This document shows, one piece after another, positions 1,314 to 5,249 of a DNA stretch of 51,696 nucleotides. Both the position numbers and the translations under genes were made by a program. The notes below the pieces were generated by a model, which worked only from the letters and a program-made list of their open reading frames with translations, was not told the DNA's origin and ran no database searches. Each line of letters begins with the position of its first letter. Within the stretch, counting starts at the first letter, position 1. This stretch comes from an uncultured Clostridia bacterium. GTDB taxonomy: Bacteria; Bacillota; Clostridia; TANB77; CAG-465. The stretch is taken from positions 1 through 51,696 of the forward strand of contig CALXJE010000011.1 in NCBI GenBank assembly GCA_944388545.1, in the 5' to 3' direction.

Positions 1314-1330
1314 AAAAATTTTTTAATTTG

Positions 1331-1640
1331 CCCATAACCTTTTCAATTTTCAGTCGCTGTTAATAGTAGGAAAAAAATTTCTACTTTTGATAGCACATTG
1401 AAAATTGAATATGGGTTCATTAAAAACGTTTTATTATGGGAGCTAGTTTAAATGAAGATGCAGAACTTCATACTAAAATATAAGTTAGCCACTTATAAGG
1501 CGAAGATCATAATAGTTATAATGATACACTTGCATAGCCTTAACTCATCGTATAGGGTGCAACTCGGCTGTTAGCGGAGTGGTGGAATTCCAGTGAATGA
1601 TTTAGCTAGTCATTGTTAATGAAGTTAAAATAGAAAATGC
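1331..1640 (+). ncRNA. Candidate structured non-coding RNA
   Basis: No open frame lies here, yet base composition and pairing differ from the flanks. CCCATA (1331-1336) pairs with TATGGG (1410-1415), and TTCAATTTTCA (1342-1352) pairs perfectly with TGAAAATTGAA (1399-1409); inside is AGTAG...CTACT. Further hairpins follow: TGAAG/CTTCA and ATAAG/CTTAT (both about 1450-1500), ATCAT/ATGAT (about 1507-1526), CTC-GCT-GTT-AGC-GAG (1563-1579) and AATGA/TCATT (about 1594-1612). The 1550-1590 part is the most GC-rich of the element. This looks like a folded RNA of about 300 nt, of unknown class; an Rfam class such as raiA, or another mobile-element RNA, is possible. It precedes a small membrane-protein gene and could also be its leader. 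Confidence 0.55.
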
Positions 1641-1669
1641 AATTAATAGAGATAAATGGAGGTAAATAA

Positions 1670-2510: not shown

Positions 2511-2590
2511 ATTTGGTGTGAAACGTTGAAAAAAACGTAATAACGCTATAAAATATATGATGTAGCAAGCACTATATGGAGGTAATACAT

Positions 2591-4391
2591 ATGGTTGCTA
2601 ATGTGAAAATTATAAAGAAAGTTGAAGGTCGAGTAGACCGAAGAAATGGAGGTGTTCTTAATAGATTATTAAGAGTAACAGCCTATGCAAGAGTTAGCAC
2701 AGATGATGAAGACCAAAGAAATAGTTATCAATCTCAATTAATGTACTTTAAGTCAAAAATAAAGGAAAATTCAGAATGGATTTATATAGATATGTATGCT
2801 GATGAAGCTATTACAGGAACGCTAGATTATAAAAGAAGTAATTTTATGAGAATGATAAATGATGCTCTTGTAGGAAAGTTTGATATGATTATTACAAAAT
2901 CAATATCAAGATTTGCTAGAAATACAGTTGATACTTTAAAATATGTTAGATTACTAAAAGAAAGAAATATAGCGGTATTTTTTGTTGAAGAAAATATTAA
3001 TACCTTAGAGATGTCAAGTGAATTTGTTTTGACTATATTAAGTTCAGTAGCACAACAAGAAAGTGAAAATATATCTAATCATGTCAAGTTGGGTTTTAAA
3101 GCAAAAATGGAAAGAGGAGAAATGATTGGATTTAATGGTTGTTTGGGGTATGATTATGATCCAAACACTAAAAGTTTATCTGTAAATGAAGATGAGAAAA
3201 AAATTGTCCAATACATTTATAATAGATATATTCAGGGGTATCGGAGCAACACAAATTGCTAAGGAACTTACAGAGAGTGATTATAGAACAAAACTTGGAA
3301 ATGAGCTTTGGCATGAATCAAGTGTTAGAAAAATTTTAAAAAATGTGAAATATAAGGGTGATGTATTACAAGGAATGACTTATACAGTGGATCCTATATC
3401 ACATAAAAGAAAAACAAATATGGGCGAACAAGATAAGTATTATATGGAATCACATCATGAACCTATAATTTCAGAGGAAATGTGGAATCAAGTACAAGAA
3501 ATAATGAAATCGAGACATGATACATTTTCTGATTTAGGAATTAAAGAAAACTACTATAATACAAAATATACGCTTAGTAATTCAATGGAATGTGCTTTTT
3601 GTGGAAGAGTTGTGTCCAGAAAAAAATGGGGAAAAGGCAAAGTAGGATGGCAATGTATGGATGCTATAAAAAAAGGAAAGAGAGCTTGTAATGATAGCAA
3701 AGTTATTCCACAAGAAGTTATAGAAAAAGCATTTATTGAAGTACACAGAATGTTGCTAGCAGATAATCAAGAAATAGTTAATAATTTTTTTGAAAAAGTT
3801 GAGAAGGCTATAAAAAAGAATAACACATTTGAAACAATACAAAATCTTAAAGAAAAAGAAAAAAGTTTACAAAATCAAATAAGAAAACTATTAGATATGA
3901 GTTTGAATGAAACAATAACAGAAGGGGAATACTTGAACAAAAAATCAGAATTAGATAAAAAACTGACAAATGTTACAAAACAAATTGCTAAATGTGTTGT
4001 AGATTCAAAAGAAGAAGAAAGAATAAAGGATAGAGTATCTAATATTAAAAAGAATTTGAAATGTAAGCAAAATATAATAGAATATTTTGATGAGGATGCT
4101 TTTAAGTGTTTAATAAAGAAAGTAATTATTGGAGAAAATGATGAAAATGAAAAAGATCCGTATGTTTTAAATTTTATATTAAATTCTGATAATATAGATA
4201 ATTCTCAAGATGATTTTGATGATGTAAAAATGCAAATTGCAGAATTTGATTGTAAAGTTAGATATTTTGTATTTAATATTGATGAGAACAATAATCGTTC
4301 TAAAGAAATAAAGGATAGTATAAAAGTAAAACTTTTTTCGGATATAAATACAAATATCAACATACCAACGCACAGCAATATGGAATGCTGA
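2591..4391 (+). pseudogene. Large serine recombinase, frameshifted
   Basis: A site-specific recombinase that would integrate and excise the element. The N-terminal resolvase domain has the catalytic serine in AYARVST, with the usual RFARN and SVAQQESE motifs. Then come the recombinase domain, a zinc ribbon (CAFCG...CMDA...CNDS) and a coiled coil (about residues 420-475). Start: ATG 2591 after TGGAGGT. The frame is broken at 3235-3238: a GGGG run shifts YIQG into a stop at 3262, while the second frame resumes as GIGATQIAKEL. Removing one G restores about 600 aa, the normal length. It may be a true null allele or a homopolymer error. It ends 60 bases before the metK fragment, as expected for an integrase gene at an element's end. 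Confidence 0.85.
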
Positions 4392-4446: not shown

Positions 4447-4485
4447 GAAAATTGTCCTGCGTCGCAGGAGGAGCAGGAGATCAAG
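4447..4485. other. Probable element/metK junction (att site)
   Basis: The junction lies between the recombinase end and the first recognisable MetK residues (VAGGAGDQG). TCCTGCG-T-CGCAGGA (4455-4469) is a perfect 7-bp-arm palindrome, GC-rich in an AT-rich setting, so it is a good candidate core. An in-frame TGA at 4446-4448 ends the reading frame just before the MetK residues. The exact crossover cannot be fixed without the other end. Confidence 0.5.
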
Positions 4486-5249
4486 GGATAATGTTTGGTT
4501 ATGCTTCTTGTGAATCAGAAAATCTTATGCCTTATGCTATTAATTTAGCTCATAAGTTATCTAAAAAACTTGCTGAAGTAAGAAAAAAAGGAATAATACC
4601 ATATTTGTTATCAGATGGTAAAGTTCAAGTTACAATAGAGTATATAGATGATGTACCAGCAAGAATAGATACTATACTTGTATCCACTCAGCATAAAGAA
4701 GATATTGATATGGAAAATTTAAGAAAAGATATAATTGATGTAGTTATAAATAAAGTAATAGATGTAAGTAAAATAGATAAAAATACAAAAATTATTATTA
4801 ATCCTACGGGTAAATTCGTAACAGGAGGTGCTGTTGCAGATACAGGACTTACTGGAAGAAAAATAATAGTAGATACATATGGAGGATATGCTCATCATGG
4901 TGGAGGTGCGTTTTCAGGCAAAGATCCTACTAAAGTAGATAGAAGTGCAGCATACATGTTAAGACATATTGCTAAATGTGTTGTTGCAAATAAATTAGCT
5001 AAAAAGTGTGAAATACAAATATCGTATGGAATAGGTATAACAAAGCCACTTTCAATATATATTAATTGTTTTGGCACAAATACTATTTCAGAGGATGAAA
5101 TTATAGAAAAAATAAAAAGAACTTTTGATTTAACACCTAATGGCATAATAAATTATCTAAAACTAAATAAACCTATATACGCAAAAACTACTAATTATGG
5201 TCATTTTGGAAGAAAAGGTTTTTCGTGGGAAGAAGTTGTAAAATTATAG
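4452..5249 (+). pseudogene. S-adenosylmethionine synthetase, 3' fragment
   Basis: MetK makes S-adenosylmethionine from ATP and methionine. The fragment begins at [12 protein letters not shown], the conserved motif near residue 120 of the intact protein, and continues through [21 protein letters not shown] and [19 protein letters not shown] to a normal C-terminus (HFGR.GFSWE). About 125 N-terminal residues, including the HPDK ATP-binding motif, are missing, so this piece alone cannot be active. A TTG at 4452 could start a truncated product, but no good ribosome site is seen. The missing part probably lies at the element's other end, outside the window. Confidence 0.85.

Follow-up and report, generated by a model that had tools for sequence, protein, structure and literature searches.

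A pemK RNA in a clostridial integrative element is the counterpart of Tn916 canT and a probable antitermination leader

The untranslated region at positions 1314-1670 of the window, the 51,696-nt stretch of Clostridia DNA analysed here, probably encodes a processive antitermination RNA of the canT type that acts as a leader. Judged by sequence and structure homology, the Rfam family found in its 3' half, pemK RNA (RF02913), and the canT antiterminator of Tn916 are the same RNA. The window RNA is real, ancient and a member of a known family, not a new class. The original prediction had read this spacer as a candidate new structured RNA: the structured RNA stands and is probably a long cis-acting regulator, while the claim of novelty falls, as 1518-1596 is already in Rfam. 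All coordinates are on the plus strand of the window unless stated otherwise.

The minimum free energy of 1314-1670 is -88.8 kcal/mol, compared with a mean of -66.1 (sd 4.95) for shuffled sequences (z -4.58, with 0 of 100 shuffles as good), and the minus strand of this 357-nt region folds more weakly (z -2.37 vs shuffles). The long stem described in the original prediction is exact in sequence, with 1342-1352 (TTCAATTTTCA) forming the perfect reverse complement of 1399-1409 (TGAAAATTGAA) and CCCATA at 1331-1336 pairing with TATGGG at 1410-1415 as its cap. Pairing beyond the level of ordinary spacer DNA had also been claimed, and this agrees with the plus-strand folding and with a covarying core; the pairing exceeds chance because homologues keep the core by compensatory change. 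That the spacer holds no gene is likewise consistent with the frames present: ATG, GTG or TTG frames of at least 30 aa within or overlapping the region are limited to one of 40 aa on the plus strand (1452-1574) and one of 45 aa on the minus strand (1606-1743), neither of which is supported as a gene, and no conserved frame was found.

A search with Rfam models gave RF02913 as the sole match in the whole window, at 1518-1596 with 49.7 bits (E 4.8e-6) and thus above the gathering threshold of 34.8 bits, with the window copy spanning all 61 positions of the model (1-61). The 3' half of the region therefore belongs to a known family, to which Rfam 15 gives no type beyond "Cis-reg". The GC-richer segment at 1550-1590 that had been singled out by eye lies inside this covarying core. 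The proposal of a raiA-like or ornate element RNA found no backing, as the raiA, GOLLD, ROOL and other large-RNA models gave no match in the region at E values up to 5. Other Rfam antitermination families did not match the region either, and BLASTN of the region against phages and plasmids returned nothing. Matches to MIR5649/MIR1878, CRISPR-DR and snoRNA models fell far under the cut-off and were discarded as hairpin noise.

The pemK RNA was reportedly first described in a NAR 2017 paper. Model scans and pattern searches placed it at about 140 further places in Bacillota-type genomes, viral contigs and plasmids; it is present in 53 of 290 genomes from the same order as the window and in 26 of 399 genomes sampled across the phylum, and in 0 of 14 control genomes. 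An alignment of 40 diverse homologous cores strongly supports the structure by covariation, with compensatory changes in 16 of the 17 core pairs. Core cells are paired in 95.2% of cases compared with 68.2% after shuffling, the covariation score is 0.801 against 0.264 with all shuffles under the observed value, and pairing falls from 95% to about 46-51% when the partners are shifted by 1-3 columns. Helix P1 (1530-1562, with 1530-1535 and 1538-1539 pairing with 1555-1562) covaries in 8/8 pairs with 96.9% of cells paired, and helix P2 (1563-1579) in 6/6; in helix P3 (1580-1592), which is capped by a near-invariant UGNAAUU loop, two of three pairs covary and the third is invariant. The G-U pairs of the covarying helices fall on the plus strand, which implies that the RNA is transcribed towards the recombinase gene.

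What this core does can be approached through Tn916. There, canT lies between orf8 and xis and is a processive antiterminator, most likely an RNA, that works in cis and in one orientation and lets transcription pass both native and foreign terminators, distant ones included (Wirachman & Grossman 2024, PMC11658703). It is needed in conjugation and not in excision, and both the canT(S3) mutation, an ATA to TGC change at nt 283 counted from the orf8 stop, and the delta162 deletion abolish antitermination and lower conjugation about 100-fold; S3 placed in a 400-bp Tn916 fragment had little effect (PMC11658703). For the comparison, the Tn916-type element on pCF10 (L162) was used, with positions counted from the orf8 stop as in that study. 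RF02913 matches L162 at 3496-3596 with 55 bits and so falls exactly on the mapped canT region. Nucleotides 283-285, the ATA at L162 3496-3498, open the pemK consensus as its first three bases and form the first ATA of ATAATGATAC; their equivalent in the window is 1518-1520. The delta162 deletion (L162 3442-3603) takes out the whole pemK core. A vanB-type element (L163) carries the RNA too, as does a C. difficile element (L168) with a score exactly at the cut-off. The phage records KY065497.1 and OR846592.1 contain the canT region of Tn916 with 100% identity, which suggests that a Tn916-type element resides in a prophage or phage record, or that there is contamination. The words "pemK", "Rfam" and "boxA" are absent from the text of PMC11658703, and literature searches found no paper joining canT to RF02913, the gene-context statements of the pemK discovery paper lying outside this comparison; the link and the boxA described below are apparently unreported so far.

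The window copy holds the same place among its neighbouring genes as canT in Tn916. Upstream lie a sigma-70 region 4 protein at 707-1090 in the position of Orf7 (Pfam Sigma70_r4, 1.9e-7) and a 72-aa Orf8-like small protein at 1095-1313, whose stop codon is where the gap with the RNA begins; the latter has no Pfam match, its cluster (c19) is kept beside the RNA in relatives, and the equivalent protein of other loci has HTH_16. Strong terminator-like hairpins stand upstream of the sigma-like gene, at 584-631 and about 350-405. Directly downstream of the RNA is a small membrane-type protein (1670-1864, cluster c9) without a Pfam or NCBIfam match, and at 1846-1877 a terminator-like hairpin with a T tail (-13.7 kcal/mol) that the consensus scan missed. 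A large serine recombinase follows at 2576-4391 (Pfam Resolvase 1.3e-30, Recombinase 1.3e-20 and Zn_ribbon_recom 2.7e-10) in two overlapping frames, 2576-3262 and 3186-4391; the break near 3186-3262 marks either a pseudogene or a sequence error. The RNA thus sits between the sigma-like/Orf8-like pair and the recombinase on the same strand, the position of canT, and the placement of a structured RNA beside a regulatory pair in an integrative element, as originally described, is borne out.

The element is inserted in metK, the SAM synthetase gene. Its C-terminal part lies at 4452-5249, right after the recombinase, and its N-terminal part at the edge of contig 47 (G000:C47:191-484; L165, L166), which ends at the left end of the element; a search of the genome gave a single MetK N-terminal domain. 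At the left end, where a T1-like terminator for a canT-type RNA to act on would be expected, the contig edge is reached after about 160 bp. A search of the 49-contig genome found no relaxase of the MobA/MobL or Rep_trans type. As the recombinase is frameshifted and these two relaxase families were not found, the window copy may be decayed, or may merely be an integrative element.

Among relatives, context was counted after removal of near-duplicates, in 59 loci with 1.8 kb or more of downstream sequence and in 83 loci for the upstream side. A recombinase on the same strand follows in 49 of the 59 loci (27 serine, 22 tyrosine), and a sigma-70 region 4 gene precedes the RNA in 52 of the 83. PemK/MazF toxin genes, from which the Rfam name presumably derives, are found downstream in only 13/59, so that what stays constant beside the RNA is the integrative element's recombination module and not a toxin. 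The orientation of the RNA is fixed relative to the sigma and recombinase genes (76/77, 78/79 and 57/57 on the plus strand). Directly 3' of the RNA the window yielded no terminator, and predicted terminators between the RNA and the recombinase show no enrichment on the plus strand (9 vs 10 of 73 loci) and are therefore not used as support.

These observations also bear on other readings of the RNA. A local cis-regulator of the gene just downstream, similar to a riboswitch or an attenuator, would fit the Rfam type, the family name and the recurrence of PemK/MazF genes and of excisionase or DUF3173 genes (16 of the 59 loci) behind the RNA. It is nevertheless unlikely, since the adjoining gene varies between a membrane protein, PemK, excisionase, DUF3173 and unknowns while the recombinase module stays constant, and since the Tn916 homologue works on terminators that are far away or foreign, while its mutants are normal in excision (PMC11658703). 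A separate small RNA with targets in trans among host or element genes would account for a discrete, highly structured and untranslated region; such a role is much less probable again, as the Tn916 mutant was not rescued by canT supplied in trans (PMC11658703) and as a terminator directly 3' of the window RNA was looked for and not found.

Least probable of all is an element working at the DNA level, namely a recombination directionality site, an origin or a set of attachment-site hairpins, in which the pairing would occur in single-stranded DNA. In its favour, the recombinase gene and one end of the element are both close to the RNA. Against it stand the plus-strand G-U pairs in the covarying helices, the fixed orientation relative to the sigma and recombinase genes, and the orientation dependence of canT, whose mutants keep excision (PMC11658703). 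The antitermination leader is the preferred reading and is followed below.

The conserved RNA extends well upstream of the Rfam model. A boxA-like element at 1393-1411 (GCACATTGAAAATTGAATA) matches the strict motif G[ACT][AT]C[ACT]TTGA[AC]AA, for which neither strand of the 51.7-kb window has another match, and it lies inside the long stem noted originally. Of 88 copies, 64 have this motif upstream of the core, compared with a shuffled mean of 0.14 and with 0 in reverse complements, and it is present in 14 of 16 loci whose cores are less than 75% alike; a strict boxA is absent from the other 24 of the 88 loci. Just 5' of boxA, in the position of the rRNA boxB, a hairpin is found at 1356-1392 (z -3.1 at the window locus), and hairpins in this place have a mean z of -2.15 over the 64 loci, compared with -0.94 in a control window. 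The 5' arm at 1331-1352 pairs with boxA. This anti-boxA arm was not seen in distant relatives; in close relatives (L014, L117, L026 and L046) it varies yet stays paired through G-U, so that masking of boxA in the window's clade may be real.

A boxA of this type is present in the rRNA leaders of Bacillota. The motif also occurs on the 23S rRNA strand, upstream of 23S rRNA, in rRNA contigs of Tissierella pigra and Pelotomaculum terephthalicicum; the comparison rests on these two genomes because searches of the window's own genome and of 13 relatives found no host rRNA.

Between boxA and the core, a long-range helix, P0, joins the bases just before AUAAUGAUAC, the start of the core, to a segment about 90-190 nt upstream. 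A P0 search across loci found it at p<=0.05 in 48 of 88, against 4.4 expected; in the window its strands are 1431-1439 (TTATTATGG) and 1507-1515 (TCATAATAG), and this AT-rich copy taken alone gives p=0.18. The P0 domain contains a hairpin ATGAAG...CTTCAT at 1452-1471, seen in the sequence and in the minimum free energy fold of 1314-1670, and a hairpin ATAAGT-TAGCC-ACTTAT with a UAGC-type loop at 1480-1496, for which homologous hairpins with different stems are visible by eye in relatives. The 3' hairpin AATGA..TTAGCTA..TCATT at 1596-1614 also keeps its place and loop in relatives, by eye, on other stems. A second architecture is found in seven loci (L025, L029, L092, L134, L141, L148 and L149), where the gene before the RNA is divergent (DUF6076 in the representative that was checked), the 5' part is short, the P0 domain is missing and boxA, where found, stands only 38-59 nt before the core.

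By analogy, the window copy would work as canT does in Tn916. Transcription from at or near the sigma-like and Orf8-like genes would make the leader, which would fold into the boxB-like hairpin, boxA, the P0 domain, the pemK core and the 3' hairpin and act in cis on its own RNA polymerase, so that later terminators would be ignored. In the integrated element, terminators would keep the other genes silent; in the excised circle, the transcript could cross the recombinase gene and the joined ends into these genes. A less certain step, drawn from rRNA operons and lambda nut sites, is the recruitment of NusB and ribosomal protein S10 by boxA. The doubt arises because 24 of the 88 loci lack a strict boxA and because the active 452-nt fragment of Tn916 begins at nt 126, five bases inside its boxA (nt 121-139); boxA was thus never tested whole in the Tn916 reporter and would be either dispensable or only partly needed there. 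The rRNA boxA complex is reported to counter Rho (PMC4807359, PMC5725501), and on that ground boxA and the pemK core are conjectured to serve different kinds of terminator. A wider proposal is that a class of mobile elements found across the Bacillota uses Nus-factor antitermination in the style of rRNA operons, with a boxB-boxA leader matching that of the host fused to a pemK/canT domain, and that in the window's clade the masking arm adds a possible switch; we give this an even chance.

The link unites an Rfam family without a settled function with an experimentally defined antiterminator without a family, and gives the canT function a structure supported by covariation and a model for searches. 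It also provides a testable host-factor hypothesis (boxA, NusB and S10) for integrative elements, including carriers of the tet(M) and vanB types, that switch on their transfer genes only after excision.

Among known systems, pLS20 has antitermination with an RNA part, conAn1/conAn2, at the start of its conjugation operon (PMC8955417), which resembles the function proposed here. It was rejected as a relative, since pLS20 has neither an RF02913 match at the gathering threshold nor a strict boxA; the plasmid does carry a match to RF01412 (BsrG) of 72 bits at L169 3437-3713. The put RNAs of HK022 and the EAR RNAs of Bacillus are likewise named as cis antitermination RNAs (PMC11658703), and the window RNA stands apart from such families in Rfam, matching RF02913 alone. 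With rRNA leaders it shares a hairpin followed by a boxA of the motif seen on the rRNA strand in the two Bacillota contigs, whereas no rRNA follows, a large additional RNA domain takes its place, and binding of NusB and S10 is presumed by analogy. The RF02913 model covers only the 3' part, leaving the boxB-like hairpin, boxA, the P0 domain and the 3' hairpin outside. The window copy differs from canT of Tn916 in its AT-rich sequence, its shorter P1 insert, the serine recombinase downstream and the pairing of its boxA with an upstream arm, and its activity is assumed from homology. Both RNAs nevertheless follow Orf8 and precede the recombination genes (xis/int in Tn916), both have boxA, the P0 design and the pemK core, and the bases changed in the S3 mutant are the first bases of the core that they share.
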